A stretch of DNA of 64,000 bases, from the NCBI RefSeq assembly GCF_003217325.1, contig NZ_QJTI01000015.1, forward strand, positions 1-64,000. The letters are read 5' to 3'. The notes under the pieces are model-generated. The model saw only the letters and a list, made by a program, of their open reading frames with translations, did no database searches and had not been told where the DNA came from. The DNA is from Rhodopseudomonas faecalis (lineage in GTDB: Bacteria; Pseudomonadota; Alphaproteobacteria; Rhizobiales; Xanthobacteraceae). The position numbers and the translations under genes are program-made. Every line of letters starts with the position of its first letter. Positions within the stretch are counted from its first letter, which is position 1. Of this stretch, positions 16,688-64,000 are shown piece by piece.

Positions 16688-17671
16688 ATGTCGCTGCGGA
16701 TGAAGGCCTTTGCCGAACTGACGGAACGTGAAATTCTCGCCGTTGCAATCGCTGGTGAGGAAGAAGACAGCCGGATTTATCTGGCCTTCGCCGAAGATCT
16801 CGCGGAACGCTACCCAGACTCCGCCCGGCTGTTCACCGAGATGGCCGAGCAGGAGAAGAATCACCGCCACATGCTGCTACAGCTTTACGAGGATCGGTTC
16901 GGCCCCAATCTGCCGCCAATCCGTCGTGAAGACGTCAAGGGTTTTATCCGCCGTCGGCCGATCTGGATGACCCGCAATCTGCCGCTCGATCGAATCCGCA
17001 AGGAGGCGGAAACGATGGAGTTCGAGGCGCACCGCTTCTACACGCGCGCCGCCGAGCGCTCCACCGATGTCGGCATCCGCAAATTGCTGACCGATCTCGC
17101 CGAGATCGAGAAACACCACGAGCACAACGCGGCAAAACTGTCCGACAAGATTTTGACCGCGGAAGTGCGCAGCGAGGAGGATCACACCCGTCGCCGCATG
17201 TTCGTGCTGCAATATGTGCAGCCGGGCCTCGCCGGCTTGATGGATGGTTCGGTCTCGACGCTGGCGCCGCTGTTTGCGGCGGCGTTCGCGACCCACAACA
17301 ATTGGCAGACGTTTCTGGTCGGTCTGGCGGCCTCGATCGGCGCCGGCATTTCGATGGGCTTTGCGGAAGCGCTGTCGGATGACGGCTCGCTCACCGGGCG
17401 CGGCTCGCCCTGGCTGCGCGGCACGATCTGCGGCCTGATGACCACGATCGGCGGCCTCGGCCACACCATCCCGTATCTGGTGCCCGATGCCTGGGCCAAT
17501 GCGTTCTGGATCGCCACCGCGATCGCCGGCCTGGTGGTGTTCCTGGAGCTGTGGGCGATCGCCTATATCCGCGCCAAATACATGGACACGCCGTTCTTGC
17601 AGGCCGTGTTCCAGATCGTGCTGGGCGGCGTGGTGGTGCTGGCGGCCGGCATCTTGATCGGCGGCGCTTAG
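16688..17671 (+). CDS. mbfA: membrane-bound ferritin / iron exporter MbfA (rubrerythrin-VIT1 fusion)
   Basis: 327 residues in two modules. About 1-165 is a ferritin-like four-helix domain with metal-ligand patterns [35 protein letters not shown] and [12 protein letters not shown]. About 170-327 is a VIT1/CCC1-like membrane domain ([39 protein letters not shown], three further helices). In Bradyrhizobium this fusion exports iron and protects from iron and peroxide stress, and is repressed by Irr. The Irr palindrome sits right on the promoter here. The start may be ATG 16688 or, by family alignment (MKxFAxLTERE), ATG 16700. Monocistronic; a GC-rich hairpin follows. Confidence 0.92.
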
Positions 17672-20212: not shown

Positions 20213-20226
20213 CTGACCTGGATCAA
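20213..20226 (+). promoter_or_regulatory. FixK/FNR-type box (one mismatch) before the phosphorylase operon
   Basis: CTGA-CCTGGA-TCAA differs from TTGA-N6-TCAA at one base. Its centre (20219.5) would place a class II start near 20261, 21 bases before the ATG. It lies between divergent genes, so the aldo/keto reductase could also respond. Confidence 0.65.
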
Positions 20227-20281
20227 TTGCGGGCTGGACGAAGCGGGCCATCCTCAACCACCTGCACTGTTCTGGCTTGTC

Positions 20282-21826
20282 ATGATGTCTCCTGTTGATG
20301 CTTCCCGGCCACAACTCACGATCCGTCAGATCCGCCTCGACACTGGCCGCGAGAACGTCGCGGTGATTTCGCGGCGCTCGCGCGCGCTGCGTCCGGAAGT
20401 GTTCAGCGGTTTCAGCCGTGTCGAGATCAGGCGCGGCACCAAATCGCTGCTGGCCACGCTGCTGATTTCCGACGATGACGCCTTGATCGGCCCCGATGAT
20501 CTCGGCCTCGCCGAGCCGTCGTTCCGCCGGTTCGGTGAGCCGGTCGGAACCGCGGTGACGGTGTCGCCGGCGCCGCCGCCCGCCAGCCTCGATGCGGTGC
20601 GCGGCAAGATTCAGGGACGCACGCTGGCCGCCGACGAGATCAAGGCGATCGTCAACGATCTGGCGCGCTATCGCTATTCCGACATGGAGATCGCCGCGTT
20701 CCTGATCGGCTGCGCGCGCTTCATGACGTCCGATGAATTGCTGGCGCTGGTGGCGGCGATGGCCTCGGTCGGCACCCAGCTGCGCTGGGACCGGCCGGTG
20801 GTGGTCGATAAGCACTGCATCGGCGGCATTCCGGGCAATCGCACCTCGATGGTGCTGGTGCCGATCGTTGCCGCCCACGGCCTGACGATTCCGAAAACCT
20901 CCTCGCGCGCCATCACATCGCCAGCCGGCACCGCCGACACAATGGAAGTGCTGGCGCGGGTCGATGTCGGCGTCGCCGAGATGAAGGAGATCGTCGCGGC
21001 CTGCAATGGCTGCATGATCTGGGGCGGCCACGTCAATCTGTCGCCGGCCGACGATATTCTGATCTCGGTGGAACGGCCGCTCTGCCTCGACACCCGCGAG
21101 CAGATGGTGGCTTCGATCATGTCGAAGAAGCTCGCCGCCGGTTCCACGCATCTATTGGTCGATCTGCCGGTCGGCCCGTCCGCCAAGGTCACCGGCGCCA
21201 CCGATGCGATGCGGCTGCGCAAGCTGTTCGAATTCGTCGGCGATCACTATGGCATCGCGGTCGAAACCATCACCACCGACGGCCGTCAGCCGATCGGCAA
21301 TGGCATCGGCCCGGTGCTGGAAGCGCAGGACGTGATGGCCGTGCTCGGCAATGATCCGAAGGCGCCACCTGATCTGCGCGAAAAATCGCTGCGGCTCGCG
21401 GGTCGTCTATTGGAATACGATCCGCAGCTGCGCGGTGGCTCGGGCTATGCCCGCGCCCGCGAATTGCTGGAAAGCGGCGCGGCGCTCAAGCAGATGCAGA
21501 AGATCATCGACAATCAGGGCCCCTCGACTTGCCGCAAGGATCTCGGCACGCTCACCGCCGATGTGGTGGCGCCGCGCGACGGCGTGGTCACCGCGATCGA
21601 TTGTCTGCAGCTCAACCGGCTGGCGCGCACCGCCGGCGCGCCGATCGACAAGGGCGCGGGCATCAAATTGTTCAAGAAGGTCGGCGACCGGGTCGAGGCC
21701 GGCGAGCCGCTGTATCGCATCTATGCGTTCGATCCGTCGGAGCGCGAATTGACGCTGGCCGCGGCGGAGGAAACCAGCGGCTACACCGTTGATGGTGAGC
21801 AGCCGTTCCGGGAGCAGGTGTTGTGA
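20282..21826 (+). CDS. thymidine phosphorylase family protein, AMP phosphorylase-like long form
   Basis: 514 residues, longer than classical DeoA (about 440). An extra N-terminal domain of about 85 residues, as in archaeal AMP phosphorylases, precedes the helical and phosphate-binding domains. Signatures: [15 protein letters not shown] (176-190), [18 protein letters not shown] (205-222), [16 protein letters not shown]. Related enzymes cleave nucleosides, or NMPs for AMP phosphorylase, with phosphate; NMP cleavage gives ribose-1,5-bisphosphate. Which substrate is used here is not provable from sequence. ATG at 20282 or 20285. It overlaps the PRPP synthetase gene by 4 bases (GTGA) and lies 56 bases after a FixK-like box. 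First gene of a three-gene operon. Confidence 0.85.
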
Positions 21827-22740
21827 GTGCGGTCCGGATCGTTGCACTGCCCGAGTCGAGCGAAGCGGCGCGGCGCTTGGCGGTGCGGCTCGGCGTGCCG
21901 ATCGACCTGATCGAGTTGCATCGTTTTCCTGATGGCGAATTGCGGGTCCGGGTCGGCGACGTCGCGCCGACCATGCTGATCTATGCCTCGCTCGACCGCC
22001 CCAATGACAAGCTGATCGCGCTGCTATTTGCCTGCGAGGCGCTGCGCCGCGGCGGCGCCCAGCGCATCGTGCTGATCGCGCCCTATCTGTGCTACATGCG
22101 CCAGGACACGGCGTTCCGGCCGGGCGAGGCGATCAGCCAGCGCGTGATCGGGCAGTTGCTGGGCAGGGCGGTTGATCGGGTGATCACCGTTGATGCGCAT
22201 CTGCACCGCACCCCGGAGATCAGCGCGGTGTTCGCCGATATCGAGGCGGAAAACCTGTCCGCCGCGCCGGCGATGGCGGCGGCGCTGTCGGGCTCGCTGG
22301 CTGCCGACACCATCGTGGTCGGCCCGGACGCCGAGTCGCTGCCCTGGGTCAGCAATCTGGCCAGCCGGCTTGGCTGTGATTGTGCGGTCGCAACCAAGAC
22401 CAGGCGCGATGATCGCACGGTCGAGGTCGGCTTTGCCGATCCGACGCAATTCGTGCTGCGCCCGGTGCTGCTGGTCGATGACATCGTGTCCTCGGGTGGA
22501 ACGCTGATCGCCTGCGCCAAGGCGCTGCGCGCCGCTGGCGCGACTTATATCGATGCGGTGATCACCCACGCGCTGTTTCCGCTCGGCATGCTGCAAGCCT
22601 TCAGTTCTGCCGGCATCCGCACCATGCGGTCCACCGACAGTGTCGCGCATCCCACCAATGCGATCGCGCTCGATGCGCTGTTCGCCGAGGCGCTGCACAA
22701 CGAACTTGTCTCGCCGCTTGCTTCAGGTGCATCCCGATGA
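21823..22740 (+). CDS. ribose-phosphate pyrophosphokinase homologue
   Basis: 305 residues, divergent member of the PRPP synthetase family, which makes PRPP from ribose-5-phosphate and ATP. PRPP-binding loop [13 protein letters not shown] at 215-227. ATP-side [13 protein letters not shown] (86-98) replaces the usual PYFGYARQDRK. The catalytic flexible loop appears as [12 protein letters not shown] (191-202). [11 protein letters not shown] replaces the canonical DLHxxQIQGFF. It is probably not the housekeeping Prs but an accessory form. GTG start within the GTGA overlap with the preceding gene; the end overlaps the next gene by ATGA. Confidence 0.85.
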
Positions 22741-24341
22741 GCGTCAGCCTGCAATTCTGCGGAGCCACCCACACCGTCACCGGCTCCTGCTATCTGTTCA
22801 AGACCGCCAAGGGCAGTTTTCTGGTCGATTGCGGGCTGTATCAGGGGCCCAAAACCCTGAAGGCGCTGAACTACAGCGCGTTCCCGTTCCGGCCGGCCTC
22901 GCTCGACGCGGTGCTGCTGACCCACGCCCATATCGATCATTCCGGGCTGTTGCCGAAGCTGGTGCGCGACGGCTTTGACGGCACGATCTTCGCCACCCGC
23001 GGCACCCGCGATCTGTGTTCCTACATGCTGCCCGACGCCGGCAGCATTCAGGAATCCGAAGTGCTGGCGCTGAACCGCCGCAACGCCGCACGCGGCCGCG
23101 ATGCGGTCGAGCCGATCTACACCAAGACCGACGCGGTGGTGACGCTCGATTCATTTCGGCCGGTCGATTACGAAAGCTGGATCGAGGTCATTCCCGGCGT
23201 GCGCGCCCGCTATTGGAACGCCGGCCATCTGCTCGGCTCGGCGTCGATCGAGATCGAATTCGCCGGCGAGGGCAAGGATGGCGCGCCGCTGCGCGTGCTG
23301 GCGTCCGGCGATCTTGGCCCCGATGCCAAGCTGCTGCAGCCCGATCCGGAAGCGCCGACCGGCTTCGACTACGTGATCTGCGAATCCACCTATGGCGACA
23401 CCGACCGGCCGGCGACCACGCCGGAGCAGCGCCGCGCGCGGCTGGCCGGCGAGGTGCGCGAAGCAGCGGCGCAGCAGGGCGCGCTGCTGATCCCGGCCTT
23501 TGCGGTCGAGCGCACCCAGGAGCTGATCGTCGATCTGATCCAGCTGATGGAGCGCGGCGAGGTGCCGAAGGCGCCGGTGTTCCTCGATTCTCCGCTGGCA
23601 ATCCGGGCGACCGAAGTGTTCCGCCGCCACGCCGCCGATCTCGATGGCGGCGTCGATGTCGAGCGGCTGCTCAATTCGCCGCAGCTGCGCTTCACCGAGA
23701 CGGTTGACGAGAGCAAGTCGATCGCCCGGCTGAACGGCTTTCACATCATCATCGCCGCCAGCGGCATGTGCGACGCCGGCCGCATCCGTCATCATCTGAA
23801 GCGCTGGCTGTGCCGGCGGCACGGCACCGTGCTGCTGGTCGGCTATCAGGCCCATGGCACGCTCGGCCGCTTTCTGGAAGAGGGCGCCAAGGCGGTGCGC
23901 ATCCAGGGCGAGGAGATCAAGGTCGCGGCGCGAATCCGCTGGATCGATGATTACTCCGGTCACGCCGATGGCCCGGAGCTGGCGCGCTGGCTTAGCGCGC
24001 GCCGCCCGATCAGCCGCGGCGTGTTTCTGACCCATGGCGAAGAAGCGGCGATTGCGGGCATGGTGGCGCGGCTCGCCGATGGCGTGGTGCCGGCCGCCAA
24101 ACTGTTCACGCCGGTGCTGGACGAGCTGTTTGAGCTGACCACGCCGGAGCCCGCGGTGCTCGATGGCGGCCATCGCCGCCGGCTGGAGCCGCAGGCGGTG
24201 GTCGAGCTCGATTGGCACAACGACATGTCCAGGCTGATGCTCGACATCAGCGAGCGGATCGATGCCGCCGCCGACGACCGCGCCCGCAGCGTGATCATCC
24301 GCCGGCTGCGCCGTGCGCTGGAGGCTGAAGCCGGCAACTGA
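22737..24341 (+). CDS. metallo-beta-lactamase / beta-CASP ribonuclease-like protein
   Basis: 534 residues. Metallo-beta-lactamase domain with HAHIDH at 63-68, NAGHLLGSASIEIEF and the ASGDLG aspartate. The beta-CASP insert is seen in ICESTYGDTD, PAFAVERTQELI and IIAASGMCDAGRIRHHLKRWL, and the closing histidine motif in DYSGHADG. This matches the YSH1/CPSF-like RNA exo/endonuclease group, with all metal ligands intact. Cytoplasmic. A C-terminal extension of about 80 residues (from ELTTPEP) is unlike the core. Translationally coupled to the PRPP synthetase homologue (ATGA). RNA as substrate is inferred from the family. Confidence 0.88.
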   Translation: MSVSLQFCGATHTVTGSCYLFKTAKGSFLVDCGLYQGPKTLKALNYSAFPFRPASLDAVLLTHAHIDHSGLLPKLVRDGFDGTIFATRGTRDLCSYMLPDAGSIQESEVLALNRRNAARGRDAVEPIYTKTDAVVTLDSFRPVDYESWIEVIPGVRARYWNAGHLLGSASIEIEFAGEGKDGAPLRVLASGDLGPDAKLLQPDPEAPTGFDYVICESTYGDTDRPATTPEQRRARLAGEVREAAAQQGALLIPAFAVERTQELIVDLIQLMERGEVPKAPVFLDSPLAIRATEVFRRHAADLDGGVDVERLLNSPQLRFTETVDESKSIARLNGFHIIIAASGMCDAGRIRHHLKRWLCRRHGTVLLVGYQAHGTLGRFLEEGAKAVRIQGEEIKVAARIRWIDDYSGHADGPELARWLSARRPISRGVFLTHGEEAAIAGMVARLADGVVPAAKLFTPVLDELFELTTPEPAVLDGGHRRRLEPQAVVELDWHNDMSRLMLDISERIDAAADDRARSVIIRRLRRALEAEAGN

Positions 24342-40017: not shown

Positions 40018-40031
40018 TTGATTGGGGTCAA
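40018..40031 (+). promoter_or_regulatory. perfect FixK/FNR-type box upstream of nuoA
   Basis: TTGA-TTGGGG-TCAA. Centre at 40024.5; a class II promoter would start near 40066. That lies downstream of ATG 40055 and upstream of TTG 40133, so the box helps decide the nuoA start. Confidence 0.85.
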
Positions 40032-56057: not shown

Positions 56058-56747
56058 TCAAGCGTCCATGTTGTGCAGGTGCTGGCGGTTGCGCAGCGAG
56101 ATCTGGCGCGCGCCCGAGAAGCCAAGAACGCCCTGGCTGTGGAGCTGCGACAGTGCACGGGAAACGGTTTCGAGGGTCAGGCCGAGATAGTCGCCGATGT
56201 CGCGGCGGCACATCGGCAGCGCCAGCAGGCCGGCAACAGCGAGGCGGCGGTCCATCTCCAAAAGGAAGTTGGCGACGCGCTCCATGGCGTTCTTACGGCC
56301 GAGCAGCAGCATATGGTCTTCGGCGTGGCGCAGCTCGCCGGCGGTCATCGCCCACAGGCTGCGGGCGACGTTGACGTCGGTGGCGGCTGCCTGTTCGACG
56401 CTGCGGCGCTTCAGCAGGCGCACGGTGGTGTCGACGATCGCTTCGGCGGTGAGGCGGTGCACCGGGCCCGATTCCAGGCCGAACACATCGCCGGGCAGGT
56501 AGAAGGCGCCGATCTGGCGGCGGCCGTCAGACAGCAGCTTGTAGTTGCGCACCGCGCCGGTCACGACCTGATAGACGTATTCGGCGGGCTCGTCCTCGCC
56601 GTAAATCTCTTCTTCCTTCTTGTAGCAAAATTCGGAGGCGACCAGGCCGGCATGCACCATGACCATCGAGAACTGGTCGGACGCGGAGGACGCGCTGTTG
56701 CCCGGCTTGACGGGAGTGACCGAAGTTCTGACTGCCTGGTTGAGCAT
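56058..56747 (-). CDS. fixK: FixK-type Crp/Fnr transcription factor
   Basis: 229 residues: cyclic-nucleotide-like beta-roll (about 35-115), dimer helix (about 120-165) and helix-turn-helix (CRRDIGDYLGLTLETVSRALSQL, 180-202), whose recognition helix fits TTGA-N6-TCAA sites. The N-terminal cysteine cluster of FNR is absent, so it does not sense oxygen itself. Cys180 at the HTH corresponds to the redox-sensitive Cys of Bradyrhizobium FixK2 (family knowledge). It activates microaerobic genes after induction by FixLJ. A FixJ-like site lies 92 bases upstream, and its own terminator follows. Several FixK-like boxes occur in this window. Confidence 0.93.
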   Translation of the reverse strand: MLNQAVRTSVTPVKPGNSASSASDQFSMVMVHAGLVASEFCYKKEEEIYGEDEPAEYVYQVVTGAVRNYKLLSDGRRQIGAFYLPGDVFGLESGPVHRLTAEAIVDTTVRLLKRRSVEQAAATDVNVARSLWAMTAGELRHAEDHMLLLGRKNAMERVANFLLEMDRRLAVAGLLALPMCRRDIGDYLGLTLETVSRALSQLHSQGVLGFSGARQISLRNRQHLHNMDA

Positions 56748-56820
56748 ACGCCGTCTCCTATTCGGAAGCTGATGGCCGGCGTTCTAGCCAACTTTACCGC
56801 TGGCAGACCATTTCGATCGT

Positions 56821-56850
56821 TATCTTAAGGGTGTCCCCCTACGTAGTTTT
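56821..56850 (-). promoter_or_regulatory. candidate FixJ-dependent fixK promoter
   Basis: Read leftwards, the palindrome CTACGTAG (56839-56846) is followed by GGGGACAC and CCTTAAG (56824-56830). GTA-GTAG-type sequences are the known FixJ contact in fixK promoters. Position (about 75-105 bases before the fixK ATG) fits. Not proven from sequence alone. Confidence 0.55.
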
Positions 56851-56881
56851 CCGGAGGGATTTAGCGTGCGCAAGCAGCGTG

Positions 56882-57298
56882 TTAACGCAAGCTTTCCTGC
56901 ATCGCGAACGGGGCGAGCGGGCCATTGCCCTCGCGGATCGCACCCCAGATATGCCCGACCAGCGTGTCCTCAAGGTTCGGCTTGGTGGCGAGGTGGTGCA
57001 CGCCAAACGCCGCGGCCCGTTCCGAAATGGTCTCGTCCGGATAGCCGGTGATCATCACGATCGGGGTCTGCACGTGCCGCTCGCGCAGCCGCTTGGTGAG
57101 GTCGATGCCGTTCATGGTCGGCATCTTGTAATCGATCACAATGCAATCGATGTGGTTTTCGGCGACCGCTTCCAGCAGCGCTGCGCCGTTACGGAACGTA
57201 CGTACTTGGAACCCGTCCGTTTCCAGAAGGAAACGTAGCGAACCGAGTACGCCGTAATCGTCGTCGACGACGTAAACAACCGCGGGCGGTGCTAGCAT
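56882..57298 (-). CDS. single-domain response regulator between fixJ and fixK
   Basis: 138 residues: receiver domain only. Acidic pocket VDDD (11-14), phospho-acceptor Asp56 in IDYKMPTMNG, Thr in MITGYP and Lys in ATKPN, all intact. No output domain. ATG 57298 preceded by GGGA; a TTG at 57322 is less likely. Lying between fixJ and fixK on the same strand, it may be a phosphate sink or modulator of FixL, or serve another kinase. Function inferred only from position. Confidence 0.88.
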   Translation of the reverse strand: MLAPPAVVYVVDDDYGVLGSLRFLLETDGFQVRTFRNGAALLEAVAENHIDCIVIDYKMPTMNGIDLTKRLRERHVQTPIVMITGYPDETISERAAAFGVHHLATKPNLEDTLVGHIWGAIREGNGPLAPFAMQESLR

Positions 57299-57377
57299 CT
57301 TAAATCCCACACGTGCCAGCAAGTGAACGATGCAGATTTGAAATAAGATGCTTTTCCGGGTTGCAGCTTGATCTAAC

Positions 57378-57995
57378 TCAATCCTTTAACGCCCCGCCGC
57401 GCATCGCCAGGCGAACAAGCTCGGACAGGCTGCCGGCCTGCATCTTGGTCATCACATTGGCGCGATAAACTTCGATGGTGCGTGGGCTGATATCGAATTC
57501 ACGCGCGATCACCTTGTTGGACAGGCCGGCCACCAGACCGTCCATCACCTGCCGTTCGCGCGGACTAAGCGTTTGAATCCGGGCGGCGATATCGAGCGCG
57601 ATCGCCTCGTTGCGGGCGCCTTCGCTGGCCTGCTGCAATGCGGCATCGATCATCGAAATCAGACGATCGTCATCGAACGGTTTTTCGATGAAATCGATGG
57701 CGCCAAGCTTCATCGCTTCGACCGCCAGCGGCACGTCGCCATGGCCGGTCATCATCACCACCGGCAGCCGGGCGCGCTCGCTCTTGAGCTGCTTGAGCAG
57801 GTCCATGCCGTCCATGCCCGGCATGCGCACGTCGGACACAATGCAGCCGAACGGCAAATTGGGCATCGAATCGAGGAAGGTCAGCGCCGATTCGTAGAGG
57901 GTCACGGCGTAATCGGCCGAATCCAGCAGGAACTCGAGCGAGTCGCGCATCGCCGGATCGTCGTCGATGACGTAGACGTGTCCCTTATGTGGCAT
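57378..57995 (-). CDS. fixJ: response regulator FixJ
   Basis: 205 residues. Receiver domain (1-120) with acidic pocket IDDDP, phospho-acceptor Asp55 in SDVRMPGMDG, Thr in MMTGHGDVP and Lys in IEKPFDDD. A LuxR/FixJ-type helix-turn-helix (LSPRERQVMDGLVAGLSNKVIAREFDISPRTIEVYRANVMTKM) follows. Phosphorylated by FixL at low oxygen, it activates fixK. The ATG 57995 lies inside the 3' end of fixL (11-base overlap), with GAGGA upstream. Confidence 0.95.
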   Translation of the reverse strand: MPHKGHVYVIDDDPAMRDSLEFLLDSADYAVTLYESALTFLDSMPNLPFGCIVSDVRMPGMDGMDLLKQLKSERARLPVVMMTGHGDVPLAVEAMKLGAIDFIEKPFDDDRLISMIDAALQQASEGARNEAIALDIAARIQTLSPRERQVMDGLVAGLSNKVIAREFDISPRTIEVYRANVMTKMQAGSLSELVRLAMRGGALKD

Positions 57996-59628
57996 CGGCC
58001 AAGTCCTCTTGCGACGCAGCCGGCAGCGTGAAGCGGAAGGTGGCGCCCCCCCAAGGGTTGTTCTCCGCCCACATCCGGCCGCCATGGGCCTCAATGATCG
58101 AGCGGCTTATCGACAATCCGACACCCATTCCGGTCTCTTTGGTGGTGAAGAAGGTCTGAAACAAATTGGATTGCACATCGTCCTGGAATCCGGTGCCGGT
58201 ATCGGAAACCGACACCTCGATCATGTGATCGGCCGCCCGCGCATTGGCAGCGATCAGCTCCTTCTTCTCCGAATTGGCCATCGCTTCAAGCGCGTTGCGA
58301 AACAAATTGACGAGAACCTGCTGAATCTGCACGCGATCGACCAGCACCAGGTCGTGTCGCGCGTTGAGATTGAACCTTAGTTGCACGCCTTGCTCGCGCG
58401 CGCCGCTCAGCCCGAGCGCGCCGGCTTCCTCGATCAGCTTGGCCAGGCTCTCGACCTGCTTCTCGGTTTCGCCGCGCGCCACGAAATCGCGCAGCCGCCG
58501 GATGATCTGACCGGCGCGCAGCGCCTGTTCGGCGGCGCGGTCCATGGCGCTTTCGATCTTGGCGCGATTGGAATCGTCGATCGCGCTCAGTAGCCGCCGC
58601 GATCCCTTGATGTAATTGCTGATCGCCGACAGCGGCTGGTTCAGCTCGTGGGCGAGGGCGGACGCCATCTCGCCCATGGCGCTGAGCCGCGAGACATGCA
58701 CCAGCTCGGATTGCAGCTCGTGCAACCGGGCCTGGGTCTGCTGATATTCGGTCAGGTCGCGCACGAAGCCGGTGAAATAGCGCTCGCCGCCGGATTGCAT
58801 CTCGCCGATCGTCAGATGAATCGGGAACGTGCTGCCGTCGCGGCGCCGCCCGGTGACGATCCGGCCGATGCCGATGATGTGCCGCTCGCCGGACTTGCTG
58901 TAGCGCTGCAGATGGTTGTCGTGGCGCGAGCGGTCCGGCCCCGCCATCAGCTCGCTGACATTGCGCCCGATCGCCTCGCCCTCGCTGTAGCCGAACAGCC
59001 GTTCCGCCGCGCTGCTGAAAAAACGCATGATGCCGCGGCTGTCGATCACGATCATCGCGTCCGGCACCGTCTCCAGGATCGACCGCAGATGGGTCTCCTG
59101 GGTGCGCAGCGCCTGTTCGAGCCTTTTCTGGTCGTCGATGTCCTGCACGATGCCGGCGAGACAAAGCGGCGTGCCCGGCATAGCCGGCACCACGCTGCCG
59201 CGCAGCCGCACCCAATGGCTGCCGCCGGGTGCGCGCTCGGTCTGGTATTCGACATTGAAAGCCGCGCCGGTTTCGATCGAATGGCGCAGCGCCGATTGCA
59301 CGGTGGCGCGGTCGTCCGCCGGCAGCAGCGCCAAAAATCGTTCCAGGCTGATCGGCGGGCTGTGGGCCGCGCCCAGCACCGCAGAGTTGGTCACAGCGCG
59401 ATCATCGACCGTGCAGTCCGAGCTGGTGGCGGCAAGGGGGGCGGCGTCCGGTGCGGTGGCGGCGTCAAGGCCGGTCAAGCCGAGGAGGTGTTGCGCCGAT
59501 GGCGACAGCACCAGATCATGGCTGGTGAGATTTAGCTCCCAGACCCCGACTCCGGCCCCCTCGATGCCCGCCTGAAGGCGCTCGTGGAGACAGCGATCAT
59601 CGATGTCCGATCGATCAATAACCGTCAC
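57985..59628 (-). CDS. fixL: oxygen-sensing histidine kinase FixL
   Basis: 547 residues. Two PAS domains (about 20-165 and 180-300) and a histidine-kinase core. The second PAS is the haem-binding type: His236 in PDRSRHDNHLQRY is the proximal haem ligand and Arg256 in IIGIGRIVTG the oxygen-signalling arginine, by analogy with Bradyrhizobium FixL. H-box LAHELNQPLSA with His327. N, G1 and G2 boxes are VNLFRNALEAM, VSDTGTGF and GMGVGLSISRSIIEAHGG. No membrane helices, so it is soluble like B. japonicum FixL. GTG start. Overlaps fixJ by 11 bases. Confidence 0.96.
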   Translation of the reverse strand: MTVIDRSDIDDRCLHERLQAGIEGAGVGVWELNLTSHDLVLSPSAQHLLGLTGLDAATAPDAAPLAATSSDCTVDDRAVTNSAVLGAAHSPPISLERFLALLPADDRATVQSALRHSIETGAAFNVEYQTERAPGGSHWVRLRGSVVPAMPGTPLCLAGIVQDIDDQKRLEQALRTQETHLRSILETVPDAMIVIDSRGIMRFFSSAAERLFGYSEGEAIGRNVSELMAGPDRSRHDNHLQRYSKSGERHIIGIGRIVTGRRRDGSTFPIHLTIGEMQSGGERYFTGFVRDLTEYQQTQARLHELQSELVHVSRLSAMGEMASALAHELNQPLSAISNYIKGSRRLLSAIDDSNRAKIESAMDRAAEQALRAGQIIRRLRDFVARGETEKQVESLAKLIEEAGALGLSGAREQGVQLRFNLNARHDLVLVDRVQIQQVLVNLFRNALEAMANSEKKELIAANARAADHMIEVSVSDTGTGFQDDVQSNLFQTFFTTKETGMGVGLSISRSIIEAHGGRMWAENNPWGGATFRFTLPAASQEDLADAT

Positions 59629-59773
59629 GCTCCCGCCTTCAGCCGTTGATTAGCTATTTCATAACACAACAGCATTCTCATTCGCAACACGGCCGGCGGG
59701 TGCGGCCATGGCGGTCAATGGGCAGAAAGACGCCTGCTGCGTCGCGGTGACGACCCAGTCAGCGCTTAGTGTT

Positions 59774-60502
59774 TCAGGCCGACTTGAGCGTGTGCTCGTC
59801 TTCCGGCGAGTTCAGATAGAAGCCGGACATGGTGTCGACCCAGCACAGATGATCGTGAACCTCCTTGACTCCACAAACATTCTCGGCCGCGACGATCGAG
59901 GCCCGGCGCGAGCGTTCCTCGGTGATGACGCCGCTGAGATGGACCGCGCCGTTACGCACCAGCACGCTGAGCCCAAACGGCCGCCAATCATTGTTGTCGA
60001 TCGCGGCGATCACTTTGGCGCGAATAACGTCGTCGCAAGTGCCTTCGGCCGGCGCCTCGCGCGCCAGAGTGGCGACCGCCTGCAGCAGATTCTTGCGGGT
60101 GACGATGCCGATCATCCGGCCGTCCTGCATCACCGGCAGGCGTTTGATCTGATATTTTTCCATGGCGCGGACGATGTCGGCAACCGTGGCGTCGGCCCGC
60201 ACCGTGTAGGGATGCCGGGTCATGATCTCACCGACCTTGCGGCCATGCTCATGCACGAAATCGGCGGCGGTCTGGCCGGGGCCGAGCAGCAGCTTCAGCC
60301 AGCGGCCGCGCTTGCGTTCGGTGCCGATTTCCACGCGGCGCAGGAAGTCGCCTTCCGAAATCACACCGATCAGTTCGCCGTCATGATCGATCACCGGCAG
60401 GCCGCTGACATGGTGCGTCAGCATGATCGTGGCGGCGTCGACGATCGACGCCTCCGGTCCGATCGTGACGACGTCCCGGGTCATGATCTGATGCGCTCGC
60501 AT
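59774..60502 (-). CDS. CBS-pair plus BON domain protein
   Basis: 242 residues. Two CBS motifs (about 1-58: MTRDVVTIGPEASIVDAATIMLTHHVSGLPVID; about 92-150: MTRHPYTVRADATVADIVRAMEKYQIKRLPVM), followed by a BON domain (about 160-225: VIRAKVIAAIDNNDWRPFGLSVLVRNGAVHLSGVI). CBS pairs bind adenine nucleotides; BON domains are lipid- or membrane-associated in other proteins. There is no signal peptide. GGGGAG precedes the ATG. A perfect FixK box sits 69-82 bases upstream, so microaerobic induction is likely. Partner unknown. Confidence 0.88.
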   Translation of the reverse strand: MRAHQIMTRDVVTIGPEASIVDAATIMLTHHVSGLPVIDHDGELIGVISEGDFLRRVEIGTERKRGRWLKLLLGPGQTAADFVHEHGRKVGEIMTRHPYTVRADATVADIVRAMEKYQIKRLPVMQDGRMIGIVTRKNLLQAVATLAREAPAEGTCDDVIRAKVIAAIDNNDWRPFGLSVLVRNGAVHLSGVITEERSRRASIVAAENVCGVKEVHDHLCWVDTMSGFYLNSPEDEHTLKSA

Positions 60503-60570
60503 GGATTGCTCCCCGTTATGGCTTCGTTGTCGGCGCTTGAGTAGCCTAGGCGCGCTGCCCGCAAGCTCGA

Positions 60571-60584
60571 TTGACCCACGTCAA
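60571..60584 (-). promoter_or_regulatory. perfect FixK/FNR-type box upstream of the CBS-BON gene
   Basis: TTGA-CCCACG-TCAA. Its centre is 75 bases before the ATG. A class II start would fall near 60536, with TAGGCT (complement of 60543-60548) as a plausible -10. Confidence 0.85.
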
Positions 60585-60657
60585 CGGCGCGGTCGATCTG
60601 AACTACCTGTGAACGGCAGTGGTCTTGCTTGCGTCGCCCGATCGGCCAAGGGCAAAG

Positions 60658-60682
60658 GCTGCGGCGCCATCAGCGCCGCAGC
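60658..60682 (-). terminator. strong hairpin after the leftward universal stress protein gene
   Basis: GCTGCGGCGC (60658-60667)/GCGCCGCAGC (60673-60682), perfect 10-bp stem with a 5-base loop, 51 bases past the usp stop. T-tract weak (CTTTG). Confidence 0.6.
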
Positions 60683-60732
60683 GGTCGTAGGGCGAAGCGC
60701 GGTGCCGGCGCAGCCGCGCGGCGCGGCCAGTG

Positions 60733-61566
60733 TCAATGCGCCATCAGCGTCGGCACCGTCAGCGACTTGAACATGCCGCGCGTCACGCCGCCGAGGATGA
60801 ATTCGCGCAGCCGCGAATGGCCATAGCCGCCCATCACCATCAGATCGGCGCAGCTATCGGCCGCCAGCGACAGTAGCGCGCTGTGAATCTTGCCGCTGTC
60901 GCAATTGAACTTGTTGGTGGTGGCGCTGAGTTTGTGACGCGAAAGATGCGCGACCAGCGCGTCGCAACTGGTGTCGCCCGCGACGTCCGGGTCCTCATTG
61001 ATGGTGACGATCTCGATGGTCTTGGCGCGCTTTAGCCACGGCATGGCATCGTGCACTGCACGCGCCGCCGGACGGCTGCCATCCCAGCAGATCAGCACCC
61101 GGTTGGGCTGTAGCGGCCCGGCATGGATATAGGGCACCAGCAGCATCGGCCGCCCGGAGTTGAACAGCACCGCTTCCGCCAGCCCATCATGATTGCAAGG
61201 ATGCGCCGGATCGGGCTGCGCCACGATATTGAGATCGTACATCCGCCCGATCAGCGACAAGGTCTCATTGGCCAGCGCCGGGCTGTCGGCGATGGTGCGG
61301 CCGTCATGCGGCAGGCCGGCGGCGCCGACCGTGGCCTTGAACTGGTCGAGCCGCTGCGTCGCCTTGTCGAGATTGGTGTTGTACTGGCTGGCGTCGGCAT
61401 AATAGGCAGCGGAAGCGCCGACCACGATCGCCGGATTGATCGGCTGATAGGCGCAGGCGATCGCCTCGAGATGCGCTCCGAACAGCTTGGCGACAGAAAC
61501 CGCACAATCGATCACCGGCTCCGCCGGCCGCTCGACCGGCAGGTGAACCAAGATATCGTTCAGCAT
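60733..61566 (-). CDS. universal stress protein (tandem UspA), leftward copy
   Basis: 277 residues, two UspA-like halves (about 1-145 and 150-277). The second half ends with the ATP-binding signature GGYGHSRLREFILGGVTRGM (G-x2-G-x9-G-type). The first half is degenerate (NIVAQPDPAHP). ATG 61566. Divergent from a second usp gene, with a FixK-like box midway between them. Usp proteins support survival under energy or oxygen limitation. Confidence 0.9.
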   Translation of the reverse strand: MLNDILVHLPVERPAEPVIDCAVSVAKLFGAHLEAIACAYQPINPAIVVGASAAYYADASQYNTNLDKATQRLDQFKATVGAAGLPHDGRTIADSPALANETLSLIGRMYDLNIVAQPDPAHPCNHDGLAEAVLFNSGRPMLLVPYIHAGPLQPNRVLICWDGSRPAARAVHDAMPWLKRAKTIEIVTINEDPDVAGDTSCDALVAHLSRHKLSATTNKFNCDSGKIHSALLSLAADSCADLMVMGGYGHSRLREFILGGVTRGMFKSLTVPTLMAH

Positions 61567-61639
61567 GGCGGCGCTCTTTCGTTGCTACCCATCCCAATGC
61601 AGCTATCATTTCATTATATCGCTGCCATCAGATTGTGGT

Positions 61640-61653
61640 TTGATCTATCTCAT
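61640..61653. promoter_or_regulatory. FixK/FNR-type box (one mismatch) between divergent usp genes
   Basis: TTGA-TCTATC-TCAT, one base from consensus. Its centre is about 80 bases from the leftward start and 84 from the rightward start, so it could serve both promoters. Confidence 0.7.
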
Positions 61654-61730
61654 CCTGTGTGCTGCCCTGCAGGATGCAATCAGCACAGGCCGCAAGCTTC
61701 TATGCGACCTGACGCCGCGCAGAGGGAACG

Positions 61731-62555
61731 ATGACATATCGCACAGTGATGGTGAGTCTGGCGGTAGACCAGGACAACACCCGGCTGCTCGAAGTCGCCG
61801 CTCAGGTAGCAAAGCACTTTGCCGCCGATGTCATTGGCGTTGCCGCGGCCGATGACAGCCCGCCTTTGTATTATGCCTCCGGTGCGCAGGCCGAAAAGCT
61901 GGAAGCGCTCAGTTCGGACGCGCTGCAAAGCAAGGTCGATGCTTTGCAGCACGAGTTTCGGAGCGCGCTCCAGGGGCATGGCGCCGCGCTGCATTGGCGC
62001 GCGGCGCAGGACGTGCCGGCGCGCTTCATGGCAGCCCAGGCGCGCGCGGTCGATCTGGTGGTCAGTGGCGGTGGCGGCACCATGAGCGATCCGTTCACCG
62101 TGCCCGATCCGGCCGATCTGGTGATGCAGCTCGGCCGGCCGCTGCTGGTGGTGCCGGCCAACACCGGCACCATTGATCTCGGCCATGTGCTGATCGCCTG
62201 GAAGGACAATCCGGAGGCGCGCCGCGCGGTGGTCGCGGCGCTGCCGCTGCTCAAGCAGGCTGCGCAGGTCCTGGTGGTCGGCATTGTCGAGGATGATGTC
62301 AGCCGCGATCAAGCCCAGGCCGGCGTCGCCGATGTCGTGGCCTGGCTTGGCCGCCATGAAGTGGCCGCCACCGGGCTGGTTCCCGACGAGGCCGGCAATG
62401 TCGCATTGCAGCTCGATCGGCTGGCTACCGCGAGCGAGGCCGGCGTGATCGTCGCCGGCGCCTATGGTCATTCGCGCTTCAGGGAATGGATTTTGGGCGG
62501 CGTGACGCAATATCTGGTGACGCAGACCGGCCGCTGCGCCTTGCTGTCGCATTGA
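61731..62555 (+). CDS. universal stress protein (tandem UspA), rightward copy
   Basis: 274 residues, two Usp halves. The second half ends AGAYGHSRFREWILGGVTQYL with the nucleotide-binding glycines. The first half has SGGGGTMSDPFTVPDPADLVMQLGRPLLVVPA in the equivalent place. Clearly a paralogue of the leftward gene (shared GHSRxREx-ILGGVT). Seven bases before the PHA synthase gene, so they are probably co-transcribed from the shared FixK-box region. Confidence 0.9.
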   Translation: MTYRTVMVSLAVDQDNTRLLEVAAQVAKHFAADVIGVAAADDSPPLYYASGAQAEKLEALSSDALQSKVDALQHEFRSALQGHGAALHWRAAQDVPARFMAAQARAVDLVVSGGGGTMSDPFTVPDPADLVMQLGRPLLVVPANTGTIDLGHVLIAWKDNPEARRAVVAALPLLKQAAQVLVVGIVEDDVSRDQAQAGVADVVAWLGRHEVAATGLVPDEAGNVALQLDRLATASEAGVIVAGAYGHSRFREWILGGVTQYLVTQTGRCALLSH

Positions 62556-62562
62556 GCCGGCC

Positions 62563-64000
62563 ATGGACCGGCCCGCTGACCCAGGGGTGCCGATCATCAA
62601 GCCGCAGGGCGAGACGCCGCTGACGGCTGCCAGCCAGAGGCCCAACCCGAACGCAGGCTCGGAAGCGCCGGGCGCCCCCTCCGGTTTCGACAATGCCGAT
62701 CGGCTGCTGCATGCCGCGTTGGCGCGGCTGACCGGCGGCATCGCCCCGGCGGCGCTGCTGCTCGCCTATAGCGATTGGCTGATTCATCTCGCCGCGGCGC
62801 CGGCGCGGCGGCTTGAGATCGCCGCGGCCGCGGCTCACGCGGCCGAGCGCTACGCCGCCGCGGCCCGGGACGTTACCACGCCGTGGGCCAGCATCAAGCC
62901 GCAGCCGCAGGACCAGCGTTTTACGGGCGCCGATTGGGAGCTGCCGCCATTCAATCTGCTGGCGCAGGGTTTTCTGCTCGCCGAGCAATGGTGGCATCTG
63001 GCGACCACCGGGGTGCGCGGCGTCGGGCGACAGAACGAAGCGATCGTCGATTTCTCGATGCGCCAGGTGCTGGATGCGATGGCGCCGTCGAATTTCGCCG
63101 GCAGCAATCCGGAGGTGATCCGCAAAACTCTGGAGAGCCGCGGCCAGAGCCTGTTCGAGGGCTGGCAGAACTGGCTGGAAGACTGGCGGCAGCTATGCGC
63201 CACCGGCGGCCTGTCCGCGGCGTCGCCGTTCGTGGTCGGGCGCGATGTCGCGGTGACGCCGGGGCAGGTGGTGTACCGCAATCATCTGATCGAGCTGATC
63301 CAATACGCGCCCAGCACCGATCAGGTGCATCGCGAGCCGGTGCTGATCGTGCCGGCCTGGATCATGAAATATTACATTCTCGATCTGTCGCCGCATAACT
63401 CGCTGGTGAAATATCTCACCGACCACGGTTTTACGGTGTTCATGATCTCCTGGCGCAATCCGGACGCCGCCGATCGCGACATCGATTTCGATGCCTATCG
63501 CACGCTCGGCGTCGATGCCGCGCTCGAAGCCATTGCCGACATCGTGCCCGACGTGCCGGTGCATGGCGTCGGCTATTGCTTGGGCGGCACGCTGCTGTCG
63601 ATCGCCGCCGCGACCATGGCGCGCGACGGCATCCATCGGCTGCACAGCATCACGCTATTTGCCGCGCAGACCGATTTCACCGAGGCCGGCGAGCTGACGC
63701 TGTTCATCAATCCGAGCCAGGTGGCGTTTCTGGAAGACATGATGTGGCAGCGCGGCGTGCTCGACACCACGCAGATGGCCGGCGCGTTTCAGATCCTGCG
63801 CTCCAACGATCTGGTGTGGTCGCGCTTGGTGCGGCACTATCTGATGGGCGAACAATCGGTGCCGAACGATCTGATGTCCTGGAATGCCGACGCCACCCGG
63901 CAGCCCTACCGGATGCATTCGGAATATCTGCGGCATCTGTTCTTGGACAATGATCTCGCCGGCGGCCGCTATCTGGTCGATGGCCGGCCGATCTCGCTGT
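62563..64000 (+). CDS. phaC: poly(3-hydroxyalkanoate) synthase, cut by window edge
   Basis: 479 residues up to the window end, open at the right edge. It polymerises (R)-3-hydroxyacyl-CoA into storage granules. A PhaC N-terminal domain (TTPWASIKPQPQDQRFTGADWELPPFNLLAQGFLLAEQWW) precedes an alpha/beta-hydrolase core. Its lipase-like box is GVGYCLGG, with the nucleophile Cys339 in place of Ser, as expected for PhaC. HREPVLIVPAWIMKYYILDLSPHNSLVKYL and FMISWRNP are strongly conserved family segments. The catalytic Asp and His would lie near or past the edge. ATG 62563, 7 bases after usp; ribosome-binding site weak. It probably belongs to the FixK-linked usp operon and may be one of several PHA synthases. 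Confidence 0.92.
   Translation, partial: MDRPADPGVPIIKPQGETPLTAASQRPNPNAGSEAPGAPSGFDNADRLLHAALARLTGGIAPAALLLAYSDWLIHLAAAPARRLEIAAAAAHAAERYAAAARDVTTPWASIKPQPQDQRFTGADWELPPFNLLAQGFLLAEQWWHLATTGVRGVGRQNEAIVDFSMRQVLDAMAPSNFAGSNPEVIRKTLESRGQSLFEGWQNWLEDWRQLCATGGLSAASPFVVGRDVAVTPGQVVYRNHLIELIQYAPSTDQVHREPVLIVPAWIMKYYILDLSPHNSLVKYLTDHGFTVFMISWRNPDAADRDIDFDAYRTLGVDAALEAIADIVPDVPVHGVGYCLGGTLLSIAAATMARDGIHRLHSITLFAAQTDFTEAGELTLFINPSQVAFLEDMMWQRGVLDTTQMAGAFQILRSNDLVWSRLVRHYLMGEQSVPNDLMSWNADATRQPYRMHSEYLRHLFLDNDLAGGRYLVDGRPISL

Follow-up and report, generated by a model that had tools for sequence, protein, structure and literature searches.

Several described systems resemble parts of the locus presented here. 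The nucleoside monophosphate (NMP) phosphorylase of Thermococcus kodakarensis uses AMP, CMP, and UMP as substrates, and an "NMP shunt" has already been suggested for some bacteria (PMC9700705); the Thermus thermophilus protein TTHA0252 displays 5'-3' exo-RNase activity (PMC4229858); and the Bradyrhizobium diazoefficiens operon bll3117-bll3116-bll3115 carries a predicted FixK2 box, ATGATCTGGGTCAA, at -74 (PMC9104804). We describe a three-gene operon found in a 64,000-nucleotide stretch of the Rhodopseudomonas faecalis genome (NCBI RefSeq assembly GCF_003217325.1, contig NZ_QJTI01000015.1, positions 1 to 64,000 of the forward strand), hereafter the window. The operon, preceded by a FixK/FNR-type box, encodes a phosphorylase, a phosphoribosyl pyrophosphate (PRPP) synthetase (Prs) homolog, and a beta-CASP RNase-like protein, and we propose, with a probability slightly above one half (about 0.55), that it is an oxygen-controlled module for NMP breakdown. 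AMP phosphorylase has reportedly been encountered in some uncultivated bacteria as well.

The operon and its FixK-type box

The operon consists of three plus-strand open reading frames (ORFs), at 20282-21826, 21823-22740, and 22737-24341, and each junction is a 4-bp overlap, as had been described in an earlier interpretation of this DNA made from its letters only (the sequence-only reading). The first ORF encodes a 514-residue enzyme of the NMP/thymidine phosphorylase family with an extra N-terminal domain; the second, which has a GTG start, a 305-residue Prs homolog of PRK07199 type; and the third a 534-residue metallo-beta-lactamase protein of the beta-CASP type with a helical C-terminal extension. 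We carried out the survey of this gene order that the sequence-only reading had proposed, in 80 close-relative loci located through the phosphorylase. The order is conserved in 69 of them, in all of which neighboring matches are no more than 200 bp apart; in one other locus (L103), the contig stops after the phosphorylase, and the Prs and beta-CASP genes cannot be judged there.

The box, CTGACCTGGATCAA, lies on the plus strand at 20213-20226, 69 bp 5' of the phosphorylase start, and shows two mismatches with the consensus TTGATNNNNATCAA. Because the window is rich in FNR/FixK-like sites, with 26 occurrences versus 13 expected by shuffling (none of 100 shuffles reached 26), the box alone is weak evidence and needs support from outside the window. 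Another of these FNR-type sites, with a single mismatch (40018-40031), lies at the reading-frame start of the gene for NADH dehydrogenase chain 3, next to the NuoB gene. Upstream regions of close relatives contain a site matching at least 9 of 10 positions in 62 of 79 cases (L085, whose upstream region is short, was left out of this scoring), versus 6.7% of random segments of the same length from the same loci, and the core TGAYN4RTCAA is present in 59 of the 80 upstream regions. The columns left free by the search pattern are 71-98% identical (92 for the first base; 81, 98, 90, and 71 for the central four), and those flanking the box mostly 31-71%. The FixK-type box is thus a conserved footprint in the group to which the window belongs.

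The window also encodes, on the minus strand, the FixL oxygen sensor kinase (57988-59628; NF041777, 872.4 bits, cut-off 850), the FixJ response regulator (57381-58094; PRK09390, 344.1 bits, cut-off 255), whose overlap with FixL is a consequence of the start codon picked, and a CRP/FNR regulator of FixK type (56061-56747). The latter scores above cut-off for Crp-family Pfam domains, its best NCBIfam match, FixK NF050806, being below cut-off (227.6 bits, cut-off 300), and is the likely activator of the operon.

The B. diazoefficiens operon comprises the same three families, in the same order and behind the same type of box, located at -74 there and at -69 here (PMC9104804), and we saw no difference in kind between the two. 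Without fixK2, its expression decreases 6.6-fold for bll3117 and 30.6-fold for bll3115 (PMC9104804). Under microoxia, the transcripts of bll3117, bll3116, and bll3115 increase 5.1-, 7.7-, and 15.4-fold and the proteins by log2 values of 2.1, 4.4, and 2.9, in a table that places the three genes in an expanded, less stringent list (PMC6515984). In the parts covered, these FixK2 papers offer no metabolic interpretation of the operon. The control by FixK and oxygen put forward in the sequence-only reading is therefore backed by the footprint, by the presence of fixLJK inside the window, and by published data in which the ortholog depends on FixK2 and is induced under microoxia; the regulatory side is supported, and for the ortholog it was already on record. 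The novelty asserted by that reading is accordingly weaker than stated, because the regulation is published and an NMP shunt has been suggested. We found no paper describing the three-gene module as a pathway in the open-licence literature searched.

The three proteins, their fusions, and linked genes

The phosphorylase matches the archaeal-type putative thymidine phosphorylase model TIGR02645 over its complete profile (1-493 of 493), with 695.7 bits for a cut-off of 434.6; thymidine phosphorylase models remain far below cut-off (TIGR02643, 139.9 of 570.7 bits; a second model, 196.6 of 269). Its closest solved chains, 4ga5/4ga6, were deposited as a putative thymidine phosphorylase, and we take them to be TK0352, the NMP (AMP) phosphorylase of T. 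kodakarensis, to which the window enzyme would then be related over its full length, N-terminal domain included. The positions presumed to form the AMP site of TK0352 (G168, 194-199, T203, D256, S264, and K288) are all identical in the window phosphorylase and near-invariant among 80 close and 41 distant homologs, from which five others (L155-L159) were counted apart. Among these positions, the SRAITS columns are kept in 80/80 close and in 40 or 41 of the 41 distant homologs, and K302 in 80/80 and 41/41. Thymidine phosphorylases carry SGRGLxHTGGT at the AMP-site stretch, where the family of the window phosphorylase differs from them. Together with the fusions described below, the family scores and AMP-site positions suggest an enzyme of NMP rather than thymidine type, in agreement with the sequence-only reading. 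A predicted structure of the phosphorylase (mean predicted local distance difference test score [pLDDT] 56, predicted template modeling score 0.40) was used for no claim.

PhnN is the kinase that converts ribose-1,5-bisphosphate (R15P) and ATP into PRPP, and NadC produces nicotinate mononucleotide from quinolinate and PRPP. Four distant loci from four families (L155-L158) contain a phosphorylase fused behind PhnN, without Prs alongside. All four fusions exceed the PhnN cut-off of 156 bits (181.4, 164.1, 185.6, and 168.6, respectively) and that of the phosphorylase model PRK04350; three also exceed the TIGR02645 cut-off, L158 reaching 409.6 of 434.6 bits. The gene immediately 5', on the same strand, encodes NadC in all four loci (313.3-329.2 bits, cut-off 198.4; NadC and fusion together at L155:6970-9930, L156:8662-11681, L157:8622-11616, and L158:7425-10077). 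In L159, the fifth locus set apart for lacking an adjacent Prs, there is no PhnN match and the phosphorylase profile is only partly covered. With NadC yielding a 5'-mononucleotide and PhnN consuming R15P, the phosphorylase is well placed to connect the two reactions. This fusion and linkage strongly suggest that phosphorylases of this family make R15P from nucleotides, and are at odds with thymidine phosphorolysis; the NadC-PhnN-phosphorylase set could recycle PRPP during the conversion of quinolinate to nicotinate. TRAP/MFS transporter-like genes and MarR-type regulators were also seen near the fusions in the loci inspected.

PhnN is a bacterial outlet for R15P which, besides being fused to phosphorylase homologs, occurs in the genome of the window, outside the operon. 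Above-cut-off matches were found in 25 of the 46 genomes searched (one of them counted twice, L086 and L115 apparently coming from a single genome; G159 = G414), including that of the window and all ten with Prs-less loci, and 21 of the 46 had none. R15P isomerase (TIGR00511) exceeded its cut-off in none of these 46 genomes, the best score in the window's genome being 141.1 of 314.1 bits, and a route through this enzyme is therefore unsupported for them.

The Prs homolog scores above cut-off for NF005537 (PRK07199; 381.9 bits, cut-off 322) and TIGR01251 (198 bits, cut-off 113) and misses Pfam PF14572 (23.6 of 27 bits). A second, canonical Prs is encoded in the same genome. Features that we take to be catalytic in Prs (a Lys and an Arg of the flexible loop, FxDxE, RQD, a His, and the DD of the PRPP loop) hardly vary among the 69 close and 41 distant homologs compared, in which Gly226 of the PRPP loop is variable. 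The "divergent PRPP synthetase" of the sequence-only reading is consequently divergent in the sense of a distinct subfamily, but not in its catalytic residues. The further suggestion that this protein acts on R15P finds no backing at this level, as the ordinary residues are kept and the gene is absent from ten of the 80 close loci (L043, L048, L057, L059, L075, L079, L081, L083, L101, and L109), in which phosphorylase and beta-CASP genes stay neighbors. Elsewhere in these ten genomes, a PRK07199 gene is present in one, only a weaker, canonical-type match in eight, and no match at threshold in one. Prs, fused PhnN, and separate PhnN may be alternatives to each other, in a count confounded by kinship, and such replacement would point tentatively to a role of the Prs homolog in R15P/PRPP chemistry. 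We did not rely on the comparison of PhnN and Prs distributions (Fisher p 0.002), which is affected by kinship, by the genome counted twice, and by G399, tallied as Prs-less although it has no Prs match whatever.

The third protein contains the Pfam Beta-Casp (123 bits) and RMMBL (48.9 bits) domains, both above cut-off, and its metallo-beta-lactamase HxHxDH motif is intact by sequence (THAHIDHSG). It misses the equivalog cut-offs of aCPSF1 (234.2 of 580.2 bits) and type VII Cas14 (320.6 of 800 bits). TTHA0252 is the closest structure, both by sequence and by the fold of the predicted model (Foldseek E 2.9e-32; model pLDDT 76.9). Compared with TTHA0252, the window protein adds about 90 C-terminal residues past RMMBL, at the end of which two helices are modeled at lower confidence (485-510 and 514-532). 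Its description as an RNA-nuclease-like protein in the sequence-only reading thus agrees with both its domains and its probable structural kinship.

We also examined 398 Proteobacteria drawn evenly, of which 45 carry the phosphorylase and 41 a PRK07199 Prs. Phylum-wide, 47 neighborhoods were fetched, 46 containing a phosphorylase match and one (L160) a Prs without phosphorylase; G236 is not among them, owing to a broken contig. The close and distant sets overlap, with L086/L115 as mentioned and L097/L116, which look like one contig, and some antisense ORFs remain among the gene calls. Prs lies at most 200 bp downstream of the phosphorylase in 38 of the 46 loci. A beta-CASP gene is found beside the module in 20 of the 46, downstream of Prs in 7, upstream of the phosphorylase in 12, and divergent in 1. 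In a quick, midpoint-rooted phosphorylase tree of 57 rows, to which the 80 close loci contributed only 10, the downstream cases group into a single clade and the upstream cases are located elsewhere. Moreover, the upstream genes are of a shorter type, whose match to the window protein is limited to roughly its first 440-470 residues. Given this shorter type and the separate tree positions, it is likely, although not proven, that beta-CASP proteins were recruited twice. Genome-wide, beta-CASP matches occur in 30 of the 45 phosphorylase genomes and in 65 of the 353 others (Fisher p 7.6e-11, not corrected for kinship).

Phosphoketolase is present in or near the module in six loci from five families, all Pfam-confirmed. 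The order is phosphorylase-Prs-phosphoketolase in L139 and L124. In L148, Prs-phosphoketolase-beta-CASP-phosphorylase is followed by a MaoC-phosphate acetyltransferase fusion and acetate kinase (L148:5710-8363), and in L149, beta-CASP-phosphorylase-Prs-phosphoketolase by an ABC1 kinase and acetate kinase. L150 displays Prs, a small ORF, phosphoketolase, beta-CASP, and phosphorylase, with acetate kinase nearby on the opposite strand, and in L154, beta-CASP, phosphoketolase, and acetate kinase are grouped some kilobases from phosphorylase-Prs. Acetate kinase was confirmed in L148, L149, L150, and L154. The phosphoketolases of L139, L148, L149, and L150 constitute a divergent subfamily, found in 12 of the 398 genomes. 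In six genomes lacking the phosphorylase, this divergent phosphoketolase is encoded head to head with a beta-CASP gene, an arrangement observed in L161, L162, L163, and L164, which have no phosphorylase match at the search threshold. In B. diazoefficiens, a phosphoketolase-acetate kinase pair, bll2518-bll2517, likewise figures in the FixK2 list (PMC9104804).

Proposed pathway and alternatives

In an NMP-breakdown module, low oxygen would turn the operon on through the FixL-FixJ-FixK cascade, the beta-CASP protein would degrade RNA to 5'-NMPs, and the phosphorylase, like the archaeal NMP phosphorylase, would convert NMP and phosphate into a base and R15P. The Prs homolog would act on the R15P/PRPP side, taking the position of PhnN in the fused relatives; it might use R15P directly, or it might work with PhnN to convert PRPP and AMP into ribose-5-phosphate (R5P) and ATP. 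Ribose and part of the glycosidic-bond energy would thereby be recovered; where phosphoketolase and acetate kinase are present, R5P could be further converted to acetyl phosphate, and then to acetate and ATP. In this most likely scheme, the RNase and phosphorylase steps draw on family membership, site conservation, and the PhnN fusions, and the later steps on gene linkage and inference. The scheme would differ from the archaeal pentose bisphosphate pathway by its ties to a Prs homolog, an RNase, and in places a phosphoketolase, by its oxygen control, and by the lack of an above-cut-off R15P isomerase in the 46 genomes searched.

A number of observations weigh against it. Unlike the archaeal enzyme, the window phosphorylase misses the cut-off of the AMP_phos equivalog TIGR03327 (480 bits, cut-off 535) and has Lys177, common to thymidine phosphorylases, where 4ga5 has Val. 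The Prs homolog, its catalytic positions being kept, is compatible in sequence with an ordinary PRPP synthetase, and the other two genes remain neighbors in the ten close loci from which it is missing. The NadC-linked fusions serve a purpose other than RNA breakdown, and the existence of beta-CASP-phosphoketolase pairs without phosphorylase means that the beta-CASP protein may serve a wider gene set. A phosphoketolase search of the window's genome found none; phosphoketolase occurs in 14 of the 45 phosphorylase genomes and in 4 of 35 controls, and with a p value of 0.057 this co-occurrence was set aside as support on its own. As for regulation, strong boxes (at least 9 positions) are present in 8 of the 46 phylum-wide loci, where about 2 are expected, and four of the 8 are in the window's family, so that oxygen control is backed mainly for the window's group. 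Finally, the three B. diazoefficiens genes are marked as lying outside the direct FixK2 targets as defined by Mesa et al. 2008, and as unchanged in soybean bacteroids (PMC6515984).

Part of this evidence is shared by other explanations. Lys177 is what would be expected if the phosphorylase were a thymidine/uridine phosphorylase acting on nucleosides, in line with its public annotation as "thymidine phosphorylase family protein" and with the finding of no other thymidine phosphorylase in a TIGR02645 search of the genome. We nevertheless consider this highly improbable given the low scores against thymidine phosphorylase models, the NMP-type motif of the family, and the homologs that occur, beside NadC, as fusions with the R15P kinase PhnN. 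The conserved catalytic positions of Prs speak for a remodeling of nucleotide pools rather than energy recovery, in which the phosphorylase would clear excess NMPs at low oxygen, PhnN would convert R15P to PRPP, Prs would be an ordinary extra synthetase supplying PRPP for base re-salvage, and the RNase would only supply NMPs. The presence of PhnN in 25 of 46 genomes, among them the window's and all ten Prs-less ones, and its fusion to the phosphorylase in four genomes, suggestive of PRPP as an end product, also favor this scenario. It leaves the linkage to phosphoketolase and acetate kinase unexplained, however, as well as the 21 phosphorylase-bearing genomes without PhnN over cut-off, and we regard it as possible but doubtful.

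Alternatively, the operon might assemble unrelated low-oxygen genes clustered by common FixK/FNR control, with the beta-CASP protein tuning mRNA turnover in the anoxic program. Usp, CBS-BON, a FixL-like kinase, and a copper-type ATPase are indeed encoded near the module in single loci, the beta-CASP gene pairs with phosphoketolase in the six genomes without phosphorylase, and disruption of TTHA0252 alters the mRNA of 207 genes in log phase (PMC4229858). Mere co-regulation is, however, difficult to reconcile with the 4-bp overlaps, the strict phosphorylase-Prs pairing (38/46), and a linkage that persists even where, as in many loci, no strong FixK/FNR box is present, which makes it quite unlikely in our view. 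The NMP-breakdown reading can also be extended into a survival pathway from RNA to ATP in Proteobacteria: anoxic digestion of the cell's own RNA, phosphorolysis to R15P with conservation of the glycosidic bond, transfer of the C1 phosphate to AMP/ADP by a PRK07199 enzyme that would in effect not function as a PRPP synthetase, and conversion of R5P by phosphoketolase and acetate kinase with formation of more ATP. In this complete form, we judge it unlikely.

If the NMP reading is true, a route known from archaea runs in many Proteobacteria with an RNase of its own, under oxygen control in the window's group, and an entire subfamily is misannotated in public records as thymidine phosphorylase. 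This reading would also provide a testable answer to how non-growing bacteria use their RNA store under oxygen shortage. The PhnN fusions adjoining NadC suggest that the same enzyme family recycles PRPP in other settings as well.

Neighboring genes in the window

Six genes flanking the operon were searched for in the relatives' loci, with the phosphorylase as a positive control (80 + 46 matches). The 80 close loci yielded no match to any of the six, and only one of these genes was matched in the distant set, in a single locus, indicating that purA and the other window neighbors do not accompany the operon. Upstream of the operon, at 16688-17668, we observed an MbfA-type iron exporter (rubrerythrin + VIT1; NCBIfam 555.4 bits, cut-off 450). 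The fix genes belong to a cluster at 56061-62552 that comprises FixL, FixJ, a lone receiver protein, the FixK-type regulator, a CBS-BON protein, and two Usp-domain proteins, and this cluster is followed by a polyhydroxyalkanoate (PHA) synthase gene at 62563.

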